From NCBI RefSeq assembly GCF_003330725.1, contig NZ_CP030840.1, positions 4,464,001 through 4,528,000 on the forward strand: 64,000 bases of DNA, given 5' to 3'. This document shows, in pieces, positions 36,744 through 52,053 of the stretch. Below the pieces are notes generated by a model that worked only from the letters and a program-made list of their open reading frames with translations, was not told the DNA's origin and searched no databases. The translations under genes were made by a program, and so were the position numbers. Source of the DNA: Acidisarcina polymorpha. Its GTDB lineage: Bacteria > Acidobacteriota > Terriglobia > Terriglobales > Acidobacteriaceae. Each line of letters begins with the position of its first letter. The first letter of the stretch is position 1.

Positions 36744-37245
36744 AAAAAGGCTCCTTAGTGCTGATTGCTGGATTTGGCCGAAGGCCGGCGGGACAGGACC
36801 GTGAGTCTGCACCTAAAAGCCTATTGTATCGCAGGGGTTGCGTCGCCAACGCGAACCAAGCTCAAGGAGCAAAGTGAGGGAGTTTGACGGTCGTTGGCTA
36901 ACGGTCATCGCTCGACGATCACGGGGTGTAGATCGGGCAGGCGATCGCAAGGTGACAGATCCTCACTCACAAGCCTGCTCGAAGCGTCGTTCAGACTGGT
37001 CGTGGTTCAGGTTGACCGAGCTAGCTGACTGTGAGCTAACCGTTGCTCACCTATTGGTAGAGGGGATCAACTGCCATAGTGAATGCAGCAGATGCCATCG
37101 TGAATTGAACCGCAGCAACGAGTGAGGAAGGCAATTCGGATCTGAGTTCTTTCACGCCGCTGCGCAAGACTGCGTTAGAAGGCTAGTGGAGCACGCGCCC
37201 GAAGTAGGCGATCCAAACATTCAACCTAAGGGACATGGCAACCTC
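36744..37245. other. Divergent intergenic region between efp and the ECF sigma factor gene
   Basis: About 500 bases. A plus-strand frame at 36838-37125 is Arg- and Ser-rich without family likeness and is not called. One short inverted repeat is present, GTGAGC-N8-GCTCAC (37031-37050), plus a weak TTGACC/GCTAAC promoter-like pair at 37012-37040. Nothing else stands out. Confidence 0.35.
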
Positions 37246-37848
37246 ATGAATCAACTGTCGATGATCGAAGGCAATGCCCAGCCGCCGGCCCCTACGAGGG
37301 AAGAGATGCTCGTGGAACTGGCGAAGCGCGGGGAGGCAAGCGCCTTCGTTGAACTTACTGACCGCCATTACGGACCGATATTTCGCAAGACCTACCAGAT
37401 CACCGGCAATCGCGAGGATGCTGAGGATGCGTTGCAAAGTGCGCAGATGAAGGCCTTCATGCATATCGGTTCGTTCGATGGACGCTCGCTGTTCTCGACA
37501 TGGATGACTCGCATTGCCATTAACTCTGCGCTTGGGATACTTCGCAAGAAGCGAGCGCTGCGGGAAGTTCCTTTTGAGGCTAAGCTGGATGACGACAATG
37601 GCTTGACATGCATTCAAATTCCAGACACAAGGTTTTGTCCTGAGGCACTTTACGCAGATTATGAGAGGGGTGCACAGATGCAGCAGGCGGTCGGCCGGCT
37701 ACGGCCGAATCTCCGCAGGGTTATTGAACTCCGTCAGAGCCAGCATCTGTCCACGGTGGAGATAGCGGAACGACTGAGTATCTCCGTCTCGGCCGCCAAG
37801 TCACGGTTGTCCCGCGCCCGCAATATCCTTCGCAGGAGCATGCCTTAG
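37246..37848 (+). CDS. ECF-type RNA polymerase sigma factor
   Basis: A 200-residue sigma-70 group 4 protein. Region 2 runs AFVELTDRHYGPIFRKTYQITGNREDAEDALQSAQMKAFMHI...FSTWMTRIAINSALGILRKKR; region 4 is LRPNLRRVIELRQSQHLSTVEIAERLSISVSAAKSRLSRARNILR, with the recognition helix in ISVSAAKSRLSRA. Linker between them carries a cysteine (TRFCPEAL). No anti-sigma gene follows; the next gene is a Crp/Fnr regulator. The start is uncertain between GTG 37186 and ATG 37246. Confidence 0.88.
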   Translation: MNQLSMIEGNAQPPAPTREEMLVELAKRGEASAFVELTDRHYGPIFRKTYQITGNREDAEDALQSAQMKAFMHIGSFDGRSLFSTWMTRIAINSALGILRKKRALREVPFEAKLDDDNGLTCIQIPDTRFCPEALYADYERGAQMQQAVGRLRPNLRRVIELRQSQHLSTVEIAERLSISVSAAKSRLSRARNILRRSMP

Positions 37849-44485: not shown

Positions 44486-45868
44486 TTATCGAGGCAACTG
44501 ACCGAGAGTGCGCTTGAGTTCGCCCTGGGCCAGCGACAAACCGAGGGTAGCCTCGAGCAATGAAGCTTTAGCCGAAGTAGCCTTTGCATGGGCCTCGACC
44601 CGCGCCGACGCAAGCGCGGCGTTTTGTTCATATTGACGATCTGTCAGGCGGGCGGCTTCCGTTCTCACCCCTAGTGCTTCTTCCGCCACTCCAACCATGC
44701 TTTTCAGTTGTTCCACCTTGTCGTAAGCTGCCTCTACTTGTACGGTCACCTCGTCGTCTATCTTGGCGAGATTGAGTTCTGCTTGAGAGAGTACTGTCTG
44801 TGCGTCTCGAATCTCCGCGTTGCGGCGGCCGCCATCGAACAAGTCATAGCTGAAATTAAGGCCGAAGGTCCCGAAGTTATGAACTAAGAGCGGGACGCCG
44901 CTCTGATAGCTGTACCGGGCTAATCCAGTTACGTCGGGAATATAGGCGTCCTTTGCTGCTCCCAGGGCAGCCTTTGCTTTGATAACTGCTTGCTGTGCGA
45001 CTCGGATCTCAGGACTTTGCTGCCGTGCGATGCTGATGCATTCTTCACGGCTGGGAGTCGAAATGGACGCCGCTGAAGTGTCCGGATCGAGTTGCAGCTC
45101 TGTCTTCAGCGGGATCCCGAGAATGTCATTGAGTGTAAGCGTGAGATCGTGAATTTGGAGAGTCTGCGTCAACTCGGTCTGCTTAGCGTCGAGTAGCGTT
45201 GCCCGGCTTTCAAGCGCCACAACATCGAGGGCGCGTCCTTGCGTCACGGCGTCTGCACTCTCCTGGACCTTCACCTGGTTGGCGTTCACTTCATCGGCTG
45301 CCGCCTGAAGTCTCAGCTGACCGATCAGCAGGCCGTAGTAGAGTTGTCTAACCTTGAGTGCGATTTCATCCTCAGCCTGATTTACCTGGATCTTCGCGGT
45401 ATTGATATCAGCGATGGCGGCGCGGTTTGATTCGTGAATCTTGAACATCTGGGTGAATGGCTGCGCCAAGCCGGTTCCGCTGGTATAACTTGTCAGCGAT
45501 CCTTGGCCGATAAATAAGCTCCTGGCTGGAATCGGGCCGGTGGCTGGCGGCACACCAAAGGCTCCGGCAGGAACATCCACCCCGGCTAGTTCAGTCAAGT
45601 GCAGGACGCTGGACTCGTTCTTGATGTGGGGAAAGTAATCGGAGCGGGCAATCTCTTTCTTATGTTCCTTGTCGATCACTGAGAGCCGGGCGAGCAGAAG
45701 ACTACGGTCTTGTTTGAGCGCCAAGTCGATGGCCTGGGAGAGAGTTAGGGACAACGGAGCCGCGGTCTGAGCATTTGCCGCGCCGGGCAAAGATATTCCA
45801 GTCACAAACAAAAAGATCGGCAGGATGACTTTGCGCGACGAGCGCCGGTTTTTCTTTAACTGCTGCAT
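44486..45868 (-). CDS. TolC-like outer membrane efflux protein
   Basis: A 460-residue outer-membrane factor with a signal peptide (KVILPIFLFVTGISLPGAANAQ). Two OEP repeats each give a long helical hairpin: LTLSQAIDLALKQDRSLLLARL ... and ECISIARQQSPEIRVAQQAVIKAKAALGAAKDAYIPDVTG; the second strand region FSYDLFDGGRRNAEIRDAQ is the classic hallmark of TolC proteins. No lipobox. ATG 45868 (AAGGA 7 bases upstream) is preferred to GTG 45883. It is the last gene of the emrA-emrB-tolC set, 29 bases after emrB. Confidence 0.9.
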   Translation of the reverse strand: MQQLKKNRRSSRKVILPIFLFVTGISLPGAANAQTAAPLSLTLSQAIDLALKQDRSLLLARLSVIDKEHKKEIARSDYFPHIKNESSVLHLTELAGVDVPAGAFGVPPATGPIPARSLFIGQGSLTSYTSGTGLAQPFTQMFKIHESNRAAIADINTAKIQVNQAEDEIALKVRQLYYGLLIGQLRLQAAADEVNANQVKVQESADAVTQGRALDVVALESRATLLDAKQTELTQTLQIHDLTLTLNDILGIPLKTELQLDPDTSAASISTPSREECISIARQQSPEIRVAQQAVIKAKAALGAAKDAYIPDVTGLARYSYQSGVPLLVHNFGTFGLNFSYDLFDGGRRNAEIRDAQTVLSQAELNLAKIDDEVTVQVEAAYDKVEQLKSMVGVAEEALGVRTEAARLTDRQYEQNAALASARVEAHAKATSAKASLLEATLGLSLAQGELKRTLGQLPR

Positions 45869-45897
45869 CTTCGATTCCTTCACCCTGCTTCGCCCTC

Positions 45898-47526
45898 TCA
45901 GGCCGGCACGACGGGAGCAGATATAACTTGCTTATATTGCGTAGGCACTCGCTGCATGCACGCAATGACCAACAAACAGCAGATGACCGAGGAGGCCACC
46001 AGCAAAAAGCCGTCGGTGATCGCCAAAGTGAACGCCTGCTGCCTCACCTGCAACCCGAGAATCTCTGCAGCTCTCGCCGTCGCGGTCGCCAATCCGGGAG
46101 AGTGACTCGCCATGGCTGCCCTTAGACCGAGCAAGCGTTGATCTGTGGTCGAACGGCCGAGGTCGACGCCGAGACCGAGGATATTGGAGTGGAACTGCTC
46201 GCGCACGGGGATGAAATGTTGCATATAGGCGGCCCCGATTTCTCCGCCCAAAAGACGAACAGTTTGGAAGTAGCCGGCAAAAGTAAGAACATCGATCGGC
46301 CGGCTGAGAGCTCCGGTGTTGATGACCTCGAGAATGATCGCTCCCACCATGCCGTTAAAGGCAAACGCGAAGCCCATCGCCAAAACCGCCTGAGAGAACC
46401 AAAAATTGCCGCCCGACCACTCCGAGGAGAGATGGGCATTCACAAGGCAACCCATTGCTACCATGGCGAAGCCGGCGGTCAGGATCAGCCTGGCATCCAC
46501 GTACTGTAGTAGATACATTGCCAGGAAACCGCACAAAATCTGCGGAAGAGCAACCCAGAGCAGGACCGGGCCGGTCTGCAATGCAATATACCCTTTGGCC
46601 GAGGAAAGATAGCTCGGGATCAGGACGACGGTCGACAGCATGATGAAGCGAAAGAAAAACAAGACTATGCCGAGCAGCAGGGTGTTCCGTCTGGCGAGGA
46701 ATTTGAAATTCACCATGGGATTGGGCATTACGAGCCTGCGTATCACCGTAACGAGAATGAGGAAGGCGCCCGATACGATCAATCCAATAATGGTGCCGGA
46801 GTGCAGCCAGTCCAATCGTTGACCCTGATCGAGCGCCATATACAAGAGCGAAAGGCCCAGGCTCGCGTATAGGAATCCTCTCCAATTTGGTTTCGGCTGA
46901 CCCTCCTTCGGCTGCGGCAGCGGCTGCCACGGAATTCCAAAGTAAATCAGGACCATCATGACTGGAGTTAGCGCCGCGCCGCTCCAGAAGATCCAATGCC
47001 AGGAGAGATGGTCCATATACCAAGCTTCCAATGTGGTCGCGAAGTTGGTCGTGAAGACGATGTCCATCGCATAGGTCGCAATCCCAATCAGGACATATCG
47101 CATTGGCAGGTTGCGCAACACGAAGGAAAGGGTCAACGGATAAAAGGTGCCGGCCGTTAGCCCTGCGAGCACCAGCAACGCAAGCATGATCGGGAGGTTG
47201 GCAGCAAAGGGAAGTAACAAGCTGACCACCGTAAACAACGATGCGCAAGCTAAGAGCACTCGACGCGCACCAAGCAGGCCACCCAGGTAGACGGAGAAGG
47301 GGCCGATGAACATGAGGGATGCATTAAATGCCGTGCCGATCCACGACGCCTCGTCGAAGCCGAGGTGCAGAGCGCCTCTCAGGTCTGCCAATCCGACGCT
47401 GATCAGGCGGCCTGTACAGGTGGCAATCATGGCACCAAACAGAACGCCGAAGACCCCGAGCATCGGGTGAGTGGTAATCACCCTCGATGCAGGAACTGCT
47501 GACGGCGGGCTTGCGGGATCGCTCAA
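45898..47526 (-). CDS. MFS drug exporter, DHA2/EmrB family
   Basis: A 542-residue inner-membrane antiporter with 14 predicted helices, as in the DHA2 group. Seen: FGVLFGAMIATCTGRLISVGLADLRGALHLGFDEASWIGTAFNASLMF and the antiporter motif C-like stretch LAGLTAGTFYPLTLSFVLRN. Works with a periplasmic adaptor and an outer-membrane channel to push toxic compounds out of the cell with proton exchange. The ATG overlaps the adaptor's TGA by four bases (47523-47526). No dedicated regulator lies next to the operon. Confidence 0.9.
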   Translation of the reverse strand: MSDPASPPSAVPASRVITTHPMLGVFGVLFGAMIATCTGRLISVGLADLRGALHLGFDEASWIGTAFNASLMFIGPFSVYLGGLLGARRVLLACASLFTVVSLLLPFAANLPIMLALLVLAGLTAGTFYPLTLSFVLRNLPMRYVLIGIATYAMDIVFTTNFATTLEAWYMDHLSWHWIFWSGAALTPVMMVLIYFGIPWQPLPQPKEGQPKPNWRGFLYASLGLSLLYMALDQGQRLDWLHSGTIIGLIVSGAFLILVTVIRRLVMPNPMVNFKFLARRNTLLLGIVLFFFRFIMLSTVVLIPSYLSSAKGYIALQTGPVLLWVALPQILCGFLAMYLLQYVDARLILTAGFAMVAMGCLVNAHLSSEWSGGNFWFSQAVLAMGFAFAFNGMVGAIILEVINTGALSRPIDVLTFAGYFQTVRLLGGEIGAAYMQHFIPVREQFHSNILGLGVDLGRSTTDQRLLGLRAAMASHSPGLATATARAAEILGLQVRQQAFTLAITDGFLLVASSVICCLLVIACMQRVPTQYKQVISAPVVPA

Positions 47527-48826: not shown

Positions 48827-49261
48827 TCAATGAACGCCGAGGATGCTGCAAGGCGCCTCCTGAGCAAGTTCATAGACAGTGCTCCATAATCTCGCTATGT
48901 ATAAGTCGCGCTGGTGCAGGCCAATCACCAGGAGGTCCGCATGCTGTTTGCGCAGGAAGTCGACGATGGCGGCGACATCGTGGCCTTCTACGATGTGACT
49001 GGTGACCTCAACGTTGTGGTCGTGCGCCATCGCTAAGGCCTTCCGTTGCAATCCCTCGTAAAAGTCGAGTCGGTCATCTTTCAGAACTCTCGTCAGATCC
49101 GGGTCGGTTGCTGAGGCGAAAGCGGTATAAGCGGGTAGATCCGCAGCAACCGTGATCGTGCTCAGTTCCGCTGCGAGGCTCTTTGTTAGCCGAATGGCGG
49201 AGAGCAGCGCACGCTCGGATTCGGGGGATTCGTTGTAAGCGACGGCGATCTTTCTGAACAT
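48827..49261 (-). CDS. Universal stress protein family
   Basis: A 144-residue UspA-fold protein: RKIAVAYNESPESERALLSAIRLTKSLAAELSTITVAA at the start and LVIGLHQRDLYIARLWSTVYELAQEAPCSILGVH at the end. The ATP-binding loop of ATP-type members (G-x2-G-x9-G-S/T) is not kept: only the first glycine is present, so this is likely a non-nucleotide-binding or altered member. The ribosome site AGGGAG is 5 bases before ATG 49261. A palindrome-like repeat shared with the next locus lies about 150 bases upstream. Confidence 0.85.
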   Translation of the reverse strand: MFRKIAVAYNESPESERALLSAIRLTKSLAAELSTITVAADLPAYTAFASATDPDLTRVLKDDRLDFYEGLQRKALAMAHDHNVEVTSHIVEGHDVAAIVDFLRKQHADLLVIGLHQRDLYIARLWSTVYELAQEAPCSILGVH

Positions 49262-49410
49262 ACAACTCCCTGAACTTCGCGGATCAAAGCTTCGTTGAAC
49301 ACGTTAAGTGCAAGCAGCGAAAAGGTCCTGGCGCTCCGTTCGTCAACGCCCTAACTATATAGCTGCGTAAGAAAGACTCGCATGCCTCAACTGGAATCAC
49401 AACGTATCTC

Positions 49411-49431
49411 ACCGCTAGCTAACAGTGATGA
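49411..49431. promoter_or_regulatory. Putative operator copy A (imperfect palindrome)
   Basis: ACCGCTAGCTAACAGT (49411-49426) differs from the perfect palindrome at 50077-50092 at two positions, and TAGCTAACAGTGATGA (49416-49431) is identical in both. It stands 150 bases upstream of the uspA start. Confidence 0.45.
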
Positions 49432-49535
49432 AGGGAGACGAAGAACTGTCTGAGATCGTCTCTTTAAATCTCTTAGGAAGAACTTCTCCTAGAGATGTGC
49501 GTTGGGTTTGGCCCGACTCCAAATAATGGGTCTAC

Positions 49536-49551
49536 CCCCACGAAAGTGGGG
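49536..49551 (-). terminator. Small hairpin downstream of the receiver-like gene
   Basis: CCCCAC (49536-49541) / GTGGGG (49546-49551) around GAAA on the plus strand. On the minus strand it follows the receiver-like gene by about 50 bases and is followed by GTAGACCCATTATTTGG, moderately T-rich. GTCTAC occurs on both sides (49530s and 49551-49556). Confidence 0.5.
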
Positions 49552-49601
49552 TCTACGCGGCCCTCTGGATCCTCGTAGCCTCCAGGGTCTTCCTCGCTAG
49601 C

Positions 49602-50015
49602 TTATTCCTGGTAGGGGCCTTCCGACGAGCGTTGCGCAAAACTTTCGGCAGCGCGCAGCACTGCTCCCTTGAGCTTCTCGTCGGTGAACGGCTCCACGAT
49701 GACGTCATAGCCTCCTGCCTCGAGAACTCCAGACCACAAGGGGAAGCTAGCCGTATGGGCATAGACCAAAATTGCGGGCTTTGGATTGAGCAGGGCTAGA
49801 TCTCCCCAGATCGACCACCAGTCGCTATCCTGAAGAGCTGCGGGAATCAGGGCGACTTGGTATATTTCTCCGTGTCGAACGTAGTGTGCGAGCTCCGCCG
49901 CACGGCTTACAAGGACTGGAGACATACCGAAGGAAGTCAGCTTACGCCGAAAATCCTCTCGCATCTCAGCGCCTGCGACAGTAAGTATTCGTATCTGTTC
50001 ATGGTTCTCCGTCAC
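49602..50015 (-). CDS. Receiver-like (CheY-fold) protein without phospho-acceptor
   Basis: A 137-residue protein with the alternating beta-alpha pattern of a response-regulator receiver: IRILTVAGAEMREDFRRKLTSFGMSPVLVS, then YQVALIPAALQDSDWWSIW, PAILVYAHTAS, and the end GGYDVIVEPFTDEKLKGAVLRAAE, close to the usual xxKPFxxxxLxxxVxxxL. The strand-3 aspartate is replaced (VALIPAAL), so no classic phosphorylation is expected. GTG start at 50015. It is divergent from the CadC-like gene, sharing a 245-base upstream region with a perfect palindrome. Confidence 0.7.
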   Translation of the reverse strand: MTENHEQIRILTVAGAEMREDFRRKLTSFGMSPVLVSRAAELAHYVRHGEIYQVALIPAALQDSDWWSIWGDLALLNPKPAILVYAHTASFPLWSGVLEAGGYDVIVEPFTDEKLKGAVLRAAESFAQRSSEGPYQE

Positions 50016-50076
50016 TATTGTCCTCGCACTACATACACGCGAGAATGACAGAGTTTGTTGGTTACGTGAGTATGCA

Positions 50077-50092
50077 ACTGTTAGCTAACAGT
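50077..50092. promoter_or_regulatory. 16-base perfect palindrome, putative operator copy B
   Basis: ACTGTTAGCTAACAGT is a perfect palindrome in the divergent region, 62 bases upstream of the receiver-like gene and 168 bases upstream of the CadC-like gene. Its right half and five flanking bases are repeated at 49416-49431 upstream of uspA. Confidence 0.5.
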
Positions 50093-50259
50093 GATGAGAA
50101 ATTCAGTTCAGTTTGATCCAAAGCCATCCAAGGCTAAAATGGCCCCATGGTGGCCACTGCTCGTTCTGCAACAGCCCGCTCCGAATTCCAGCTTCCCTTT
50201 GGGCAGCAAAGACCTGCCGGGACGACGCCCGAATTCAAGCCGCACGGAGCTGTGAAAAA

Positions 50260-52053
50260 GTGAACACGGTCAACGAAAATACGGCTTCGAAAGACACGAT
50301 CCGCCAGGAGCTTACCAGAATCCTGCAAAGCCCGATCTTTGCGCAGTCGGATCGTCTCGGCCGCTTCCTTCGATTCACGGTGGAACACGCTCTCAGCGGC
50401 AAAGACGAGGGCCTCAAGGAATATATCATCGGCACTGAGGTTTACGATCGCAAGCCGCCTTATCATCCGAGCCAGGACTCGATCGTTCGCACTGAAGCAC
50501 GCCGGCTGCGGTTGAAACTGAAGGAGTATTACGAATCGGAAGGTAAGGAAGACCCGGTCTTCATCTATTTCCGTCCGGGTAGCTACATCCCTGTATTTCG
50601 ATCCAAGAGTGCGCCGTCCGATGGGCCGTCGGGAGTTGCAAGCTCTAGTGAAGACTTGTTTGTAGAAGGTTCGGGAATAGCCATCGCCGTCATACCGTTT
50701 CTCGATGTATCGGGGCAGCCCTTATCCTCCACTTATGCAAGGGGCGTCACCGATGAACTGGTTCATGAACTCATGCATTGCGACGGCTGCCGGGTAATCG
50801 CGGCCAGTTCGATCGCTCAGCTTGGACTTCAAGTCCCTGATATTCCCGCGCTAGCTCGTAAGCTGGGAGTTCAGATCGTATTCGAAGGAACAGTGAGGGA
50901 AGAAGGAAATCGGATCCGCGTCACTTCCAGAATCGTGCATGCAGATGGCTTTCAACTCTGGTCTCAGCGATTCGATGCCGCCGTCGATTCGTCGAGCCTG
51001 TTCACCGTGCAGGAGCAGTTCGCCTCCGCTCTCGTGAACCGCGTGCGTCCACAGCAGTCTATCATTCGCTCGGCGGAGGCATCGGCAGGGCCATTCCTAT
51101 TCTCCGTGTATCCTGCCATCCTGAAAGGAGAGGCACTTCTCGAGGAGGGAACCGCTGCCGATGTTCAGGCTGCCCTGACGAAATTCCGCGAGGTGACCGA
51201 GATCGCTCCGGGATTTGCTCGGCCTTATTGCGGGATTGCGCAATGTTATTCGTGGATGGCCCTGCACGACGTACTGCGGTCAGTGGATCTCGTCTCGCTC
51301 GCCAGGCATGCTGCTGAACGGGCCATCGAACTCGATAGTGAAATGAACGAATCTCTCGCCGCTCTGGGAAACGTCTTAGCGCTGGAATGGGATTGGAGCG
51401 CCGCGGAAGACAGTTTTCGGCAGGCCACTGCTTCAGGGTCGCACTCAGTCAGTAATCGCCAGTATGCTATGCTTCTGACCTTGCTGGGGCGCTTCGATGA
51501 GGCTTGGCTCTACCTGGAAAATGCACAGCAGACTGATCCTTTTTCCTATCTTCAGAAAGTCGCTTGTTCCAAGTTTTTCTTTCTGAGCCGGAGGTATGAT
51601 GAGGCACTTGGGCATTTCTCGGAACCGCAGAAATATGGACCATTGCCGCTCGAAGTGCTGCTGTACCAGGCGCTGATATATGTTCAACTCGGTCAGCTGG
51701 AGGAGGCGAAGAAGTTGGCCAGGATGGTTCAGCGCAGCGCAGGCGCACAACTATCTTTGCGCGCCTGGATCGCCGAGTTGCTCGCCCGCTGTGGAGAAAT
51801 CACCGCGGCGTTGGCTATCGTCGATGAGTTCAAGCTCGTGGCGCCGGGGAAGCCTTTCAGCAAATTTCGACAGGCGTCGCTCTTGATGGCGCTTGGGGAC
51901 TCTGAAGCCGCACTCTCCTCACTTGCCTCGGCCTTTGCGGACAAGGAGCCCGAGTTGCCATGGCTTGCGGTCGATCCACGATTCGACTCGATCCGAAGTA
52001 TTCCGAAATTTCAGGAAATCGTGAGCAAACTCAAGTTAGTCAATTCTGCCTGA
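50260..52053 (+). CDS. CadC-like regulator: acidobacterial N-terminal domain, TolB/FlgO-like domain, TPR repeats
   Basis: A 597-residue protein. Residues about 8-115 form a domain very common in acidobacteria: IRQELTRILQSPIFAQSDRLGRFLRFTVEHAL, GTEVYDRKPPYHPSQDSIVRTEARRLRLKLKEYYE, FRPGSYIPVF, often annotated as a winged-helix-like or cyclase-linked domain. A TolB/FlgO-like domain follows (IAVIPFLDVSGQPLSSTYARGVTDELVHELM...GVQIVFEGTVREEGNRIRVTSRIV), then about six TPR-like repeats. No membrane helix. Function in signal integration is inferred only. GTG 50260 with GGAG 10 bases upstream is chosen; the frame is open to 50113. Confidence 0.82.
   Translation: MNTVNENTASKDTIRQELTRILQSPIFAQSDRLGRFLRFTVEHALSGKDEGLKEYIIGTEVYDRKPPYHPSQDSIVRTEARRLRLKLKEYYESEGKEDPVFIYFRPGSYIPVFRSKSAPSDGPSGVASSSEDLFVEGSGIAIAVIPFLDVSGQPLSSTYARGVTDELVHELMHCDGCRVIAASSIAQLGLQVPDIPALARKLGVQIVFEGTVREEGNRIRVTSRIVHADGFQLWSQRFDAAVDSSSLFTVQEQFASALVNRVRPQQSIIRSAEASAGPFLFSVYPAILKGEALLEEGTAADVQAALTKFREVTEIAPGFARPYCGIAQCYSWMALHDVLRSVDLVSLARHAAERAIELDSEMNESLAALGNVLALEWDWSAAEDSFRQATASGSHSVSNRQYAMLLTLLGRFDEAWLYLENAQQTDPFSYLQKVACSKFFFLSRRYDEALGHFSEPQKYGPLPLEVLLYQALIYVQLGQLEEAKKLARMVQRSAGAQLSLRAWIAELLARCGEITAALAIVDEFKLVAPGKPFSKFRQASLLMALGDSEAALSSLASAFADKEPELPWLAVDPRFDSIRSIPKFQEIVSKLKLVNSA

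Follow-up and report, generated by a model that had tools for sequence, protein, structure and literature searches.

Three described systems come closest to the locus presented here. Regulators of the HilA/EilA, CadC type (ToxR-like, with an OmpR/PhoB winged helix) have the same domain order and size as one of its proteins, and here too the gene stands beside its likely targets. The Pho box, recognised by PhoB, is built of direct repeats about 11 bp apart at the place of the -35 element; the box described below shares the repeats and, by prediction, the placement. In the enterobacterial EmrR-EmrAB system, an EmrA/EmrB/TolC pump is accompanied by a local regulator, which is likewise true for our cassette.

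The cassette and its palindromic sequences

The cassette is located in a 64,000-nucleotide stretch of the Acidisarcina polymorpha genome, referred to as the window. The relevant genes are:

50260 to 52053, plus strand: CadC/HilA-like regulator with unrecognised N-terminal domain, HilA/EilA-similar region and TPRs; proposed binder of the box (GTG start placed by inference from homologues)
49602 to 50015, minus strand: pseudo-receiver (REC), weak response-regulator similarity
48827 to 49261, minus strand: universal stress protein (Usp, uspA), PF00582
47523 to 48671, minus strand: EmrA-like periplasmic adaptor, PF16576/PF13437; EmrA-family model E 1.6e-62, below curated cut-off
45898 to 47526, minus strand: EmrB-like DHA2 MFS transporter, PF07690; DHA2/EmrB model E 5e-45, below curated cut-off
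44486 to 45883, minus strand: TolC-like outer membrane efflux protein, PF02321
43946 to 44443, minus strand: 165-aa protein of no family, last in the pump operon; homologous stretches lie beside TolC in two relatives (L016, L036)
37186 to 37848, plus strand: ECF sigma factor, putative regulon member by its box

Genes of adaptor, DHA2 MFS permease and outer-membrane factor, the three parts of an EmrAB-TolC tripartite pump, are adjacent, on the same strand and downstream of Usp. REC scores 13.8 bits against the receiver model PF00072 and does not reach its curated cut-off of 30.2; none of the 14 aligned homologues has Asp at the position normally phosphorylated. Another receiver-like protein, of weak similarity by eye, is encoded elsewhere in the genome (L003:871-1344), divergently from a Crp-family gene. 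Downstream of the ECF gene, and sharing its strand, lie genes for Crp-like and SixA-like proteins, glycogen phosphorylase and phosphoglucomutase.

The original prediction described a perfect palindrome, ACTGTTAGCTAACAGT, and two identical copies of a 16-mer, TAGCTAACAGTGATGA, which could mark a single regulon made up of the stress protein, the receiver and the CadC-like regulator. Both sequences were located as claimed, the palindrome at 50077-50092 and the 16-mer, intergenic in both copies, at 49416-49431 and 50082-50097. With up to 3 mismatches, the palindrome matches the window 3 times against 0.05 expected, a number reached by none of 100 shuffles. At the same threshold, a loose one for TAGCTAACAGTGATGA, the 16-mer has 2 matches against 0.24 expected and 3 of 100 shuffles reach 2; both real copies are exact. 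The palindrome also has an imperfect third copy, at 37028-37043, which was absent from the original list.

The 14-bp core CTGTTAGCTAACAG occurs, with up to 2 mismatches, at 5 places in the 7.6-Mb genome, 3 of them inside the window, while the backwards control pattern occurs at 26. The two copies outside the window are found within an ORF (L003) and in the gap separating two ORF ends (L002). With 0-1 mismatch, 7 of 60 other genomes also contain the core, in surroundings unrelated to these and partly within short AGCTGATAGC-type repeats. This would suit copies that are remnants of interspersed repeats, or chance duplications, devoid of regulatory role. Such an origin is extremely improbable, since copies are few per genome, their orientation and distance to gene starts are fixed, and the same places carry them in different genera despite diverging flanks. 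By itself the core palindrome is unspecific, and specificity belongs to a 30-bp box of which it is a part. As an operator in its own right the palindrome was ruled out, being too unspecific (the 7 of 60 genomes) and surpassed in conservation by other features. Short AGCTGATAGC/AGCTAACAGC-type repeats with core TAGCTAACAG, observed near position 1501 of L006, L011 and L013, are a different thing.

A box of three direct repeats

In intergenic alignments of relatives, conservation extends past the palindrome. The consensus, read toward the controlled gene, is TCATCACnGTKAGCTMACnGTTGCTCACKY (30 bp). Boxes and associated blocks in the window are:

50068 to 50097, minus strand: box before the REC gene, TCATCACTGTTAGCTAACAGTTGCATACTC, including the palindrome; own-genome E 3.8e-5
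49402 to 49431, minus strand: box before uspA, TCATCACTGTTAGCTAGCGGTGAGATACGT; own-genome E 0.0079
37023 to 37052, plus strand: third box, before the ECF sigma factor gene, AGCTGACTGTGAGCTAACCGTTGCTCACCT; own-genome E 2.1e-4
50046 to 50051, minus strand: CTGTCA block, 16 nt beyond the REC box, that may be a -10 region
37071 to 37076, plus strand: CTGCCA block, 18 nt beyond the ECF box, that may be a -10 region

The REC box lies about 53 nt from the start of the receiver-like gene, and about 160 nt separate it from the GTG at which the divergent CadC-like gene probably starts. The distance from the second box to the uspA start is about 140 nt, and the ECF box is about 13 kb away from both. Upstream of the ECF box, between EF-P and ECF genes, a half-box-like sequence is found at 36894-36915, CGTTGGCTAACGGTCATCGC.

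The box contains three direct TMAC repeats, at columns 4, 15 and 25, so that spacings are 11 and 10 bp and the repeats fall on one helix face. Its best direct-repeat periods are 21 and 11 (offsets 4-23 compared) and its best symmetry centres 7.0 and 12.5. The box is thus both a repeat and, partly, a palindrome. Each TMAC unit is nearly symmetric, therefore the first two units together resemble a palindrome. The shared palindromic element of the original prediction is accordingly real and conserved, and it turns out to be only the middle part of a three-repeat box.

Conservation was examined by a leave-one-locus-out matrix scan with 30 boxes, L037:10331 included; by their length, L035 is the L014 contig and L041 the L015 contig, and each was counted once. 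In 15 of 15 loci, the top match is a listed box (scores 17.7-41.8). The highest unlisted match in any locus, 19.8 at L043:7859, is a candidate box before EmrA, and all others score at most 18.7. Since the box list came from an earlier matrix, the cleanest cases are L040, L045 and L047, which had given no site to it. With the first matrix (17 rows, two of them out of register with scores -17.2 and -15.4), their top matches are 27.2, 16.4 and 19.4, respectively; random matches of at least 12 occur 6 times per Mb on both strands. The model used for genome scans (A1/R1) comprises 29 of 35 candidate boxes. Omitted were five weak or out-of-register ones (L043:7859, L043:9804, L044:9735, L045:6536, L047:17182) and also L037:10331.

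A strong box precedes REC in 10 of the 15 loci (window, L014, L016, L036-L039, L041, L042, L046); that of L045 is moderate. The copy upstream of REC scores poorly in L043 and L044 (about 4.0 and 8.4), where boxes precede EmrA and ECF, while boxes of L040 and L047 are located elsewhere within the locus. Two near-identical boxes (L016:3818, L037:7819) are situated 3' of the CadC-like gene and point away from it; no target gene was recognised for them at these loci. A coding-like ORF starts within 300 nt downstream of 27 of 32 boxes and of 1020 of 1920 random places, a weak test owing to the lax ORF criterion. Of 30 boxes, 13 have the CTGYCA block 16-18 nt downstream, against about 0.04 expected (background 0.00042 per nt and strand), for a pattern picked after viewing the alignment and boxes that, where orthologous, are not independent.

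Two outcomes had been named as fatal to the original prediction, namely no conservation in relatives and random scatter inside genes. Instead, the box is conserved in all 15 loci and strong genome-wide matches cluster at the same cassette. These sequence comparisons lead us to regard the box as a genuine conserved cis-element of what appears to be a small, mostly local regulon.

Distribution of boxes and of the cassette

In the own genome, where 150 of 1122 first-look candidates were scored with model R1, four matches reach E<=0.03. Three are those of the window; the fourth lies 5' of an EmrA paralogue beside a CadC-like paralogue. Boxes at E<=1 are present in 10 of 11 cassette genomes scanned, mostly no farther than about 25 kb from the cassette.

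The scan of 250 family genomes, in which 29 of about 1000 first-look candidates were scored per genome and weak boxes were consequently missed, found a box at E<=0.03 in 18, with about 7 chance matches nominally expected at this threshold. G183, for example, has a box scoring 29.3 with the first matrix, yet reaches only E 0.062. Matches in G215 and G111 overlap ORFs. The clade of the CadC N-terminal domain (N-domain; E<=1e-35) is present in 15 of the 250 genomes, REC homologues in 16 and close ECF homologues (E<=1e-40) in 10. Their overlaps with the 18 box genomes are 13 (p=5e-16), 12 (p=3e-13) and 7 (p=3e-7), respectively, shared ancestry being uncorrected. Boxes thus follow the regulator's N-domain clade somewhat better than REC or ECF. 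Most of this co-occurrence comes from genomes that also gave training sites. Outside the training genomes, the clade is found in 2 of 6 box genomes (G064, G131) and in 3 of 237 overall (p=0.0016), and neither REC nor ECF is found in any of the six. In G131, further weak boxes (E 1.09) lie about 0.8 kb and 6 kb from the CadC-like gene, before a TolC-like ORF and before a pair of isochorismatase-like and amidohydrolase-like genes; a FUSC-family gene is a neighbour. The correspondence has exceptions. G160 carries the regulator clade and no box at E<=3 (its assembly is 77% complete), and G151, where no box reaches E<=1, encodes the domain (E 1.5e-35) within a frame of 603 aa. In G224 and G225 a box occurs and no close regulator domain, and G233 combines a box with a domain at 6.8e-33, slightly past the clade cut-off.

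These counts also bear on the ECF sigma factor. The box might be the promoter of this linked, auto-regulating factor: its gene is headed by a box in the window, in L043 and L044 and, unlinked, in G164, and the second conserved block stands at a nearly constant distance. We consider this quite unlikely. Close ECF homologues are missing from 11 of the 18 box genomes, while G173 and G244 possess one without a good box, and the box, with its three helically phased repeats over 25-30 bp, exceeds the usual length of an ECF -35 element.

Three named records contain REC homologues, two Acidobacteriales MAGs and Granulicella sp. S190, the source of L015/L041. In 20-kb stretches of relatives, the CadC-like gene is divergent from REC, which is often followed by Usp and then by EmrA-EmrB-TolC. 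Among 13 such stretches (window, L036-L047), CadC-like genes are present in 13, REC in 12 (a count that is not independent, as the stretches were selected by REC), TolC and EmrA in 11 each, EmrB in 10, Usp in 6 and ECF in 4. Other genes headed by a box in relatives encode a thiamine-pyrophosphate decarboxylase family enzyme, aldehyde dehydrogenase, cytochrome oxidase subunit II, a VTT/DedA-type membrane protein, an isochorismatase-domain enzyme and a class III CoA transferase. Such a set points to a role in detoxifying harmful compounds, aromatic or other, and, as a guess, to an inducer of this kind. The regulon of stress protein, receiver and CadC-like regulator that had been proposed from the window is supported by these comparisons, and its predicted membership is wider, extending to the EmrA-EmrB-TolC operon and the ECF sigma gene, as well as to catabolic genes of relatives.

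The putative regulator and known systems

Residues 180-498 of the CadC/HilA-like protein match positions 158-475 of the HilA/EilA profile NF009037 (E 6e-21; 74.4 bits, curated cut-off of 589 not reached). The N-domain of about 120 residues occupies the position of the HilA winged helix. Compared with Pfam, it (window 50260-50679) matches no family at E<=5, hence no Trans_reg_C (PF00486) is detectable. An hhalign comparison of 25 N-domains with 28 Trans_reg_C domains of the own genome is collinear with a score of 20.3, at a probability of only 9.7; none of 200 column shuffles reaches this score, the best attaining 19.8. Likeness of the N-domain to OmpR/PhoB winged helices is therefore weak. The AlphaFold2 model of the domain, built from 4 sequences, is poor (pLDDT 65) and displays helices followed by two short strands. 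Searched with this model, Foldseek returned nothing at E<=0.001, and VIA-align gave rows at Z 2.1-2.7 only, among them, at Z 2.1, the DNA-binding domain of ArlR, a match that carries no weight. Both matches of a PDB sequence search are at chance level, and no further N-domains were found among viral contigs.

The own genome contains 11 copies of the N-domain and one relative about 30. Eight more distant own-genome paralogues (L099-L106), most of which adjoin TonB-type/carboxypeptidase-regulatory-domain-like genes (by eye), have no box in their 3.3-kb loci, which indicates that box and clade belong together.

Taken as an operator or activator box of about 25-30 bp, the element is most likely bound by the divergently encoded CadC/HilA-like protein through its N-domain. 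Binding would proceed as a cooperative head-to-tail oligomer on one helix face, in the manner of PhoB on the Pho box. Should CTGYCA be the -10 region, the -35 position would lie under the third repeat, and the bound regulator would activate, rather than repress, REC-Usp-EmrA-EmrB-TolC and an ECF sigma gene. In this way the cell would export and detoxify small toxic molecules, possibly aromatic acids. That this protein binds the box cooperatively and activates an efflux and detoxification regulon, itself a computational prediction, we consider probable. The original prediction had listed the CadC-like protein among the regulon's members; its gene does belong to the cassette, and the protein is more likely to be the binder of the box than a mere member.

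The box could also be the operator of a different regulator encoded outside the cassette, for instance a MarR-, TetR- or LacI-type repressor acting on a GTKAGCTMAC palindrome, with the CadC-like gene merely another target. The core is strongly palindromic, as in many repressor operators, some boxes are on contigs with no CadC-like gene in the fetched stretch, and another unlinked regulator could equally use REC and Usp boxes. On the other hand, several boxes lose palindromy and keep the TMAC spacing (e.g. L016:6457 and the G131 boxes), and box presence follows the CadC N-domain clade. Besides CadC-like and receiver-domain proteins, the only candidate DNA-binding family that recurs in at least 3 of 13 loci is the ECF sigma factor (4 of 13). 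A regulator from outside the cassette is thus improbable. The MarR type in particular was rejected, as no such gene was recognised among the window proteins scanned or among families common to at least 3 loci.

Beyond the preferred reading, in which the CadC/HilA-like protein acts on the box, a broader one appears plausible, if slightly less likely to hold than to fail. The N-domain may define an unnamed acidobacterial DNA-binding family reading triple helically phased repeats, whose TMAC box in this clade would run the efflux and detoxification regulon with pseudo-receiver and Usp as possible modulators. Few regulons have been described in such organisms. The present one offers a concrete candidate operator and target list for a large acidobacterial regulator group without a Pfam-recognised DNA-binding domain, and it would tie a universal stress protein and a pseudo-receiver to an efflux pump of the drug/aromatic-acid type.

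At the level of titles and abstract openings, no earlier description of the motif or regulon, the string GTTAGCTAAC included, was found among the papers listed. The kind of system is familiar, while domain and box are new to the libraries and literature listings searched. In contrast to HilA/EilA and other CadC-type regulators, the N-domain is not recognised by Pfam as Trans_reg_C, and the regulator is linked to targets that comprise an efflux pump and stress genes; the likeness to HilA is one of proteins. Unlike the Pho box, our box has three units, TMAC sequence and near-symmetric units, and its proposed binder has no phosphorylatable receiver. Compared with EmrR-EmrAB, a CadC/HilA-like regulator, a pseudo-receiver and Usp take the place of the MarR-type gene, none of which is found among scanned cassette proteins.
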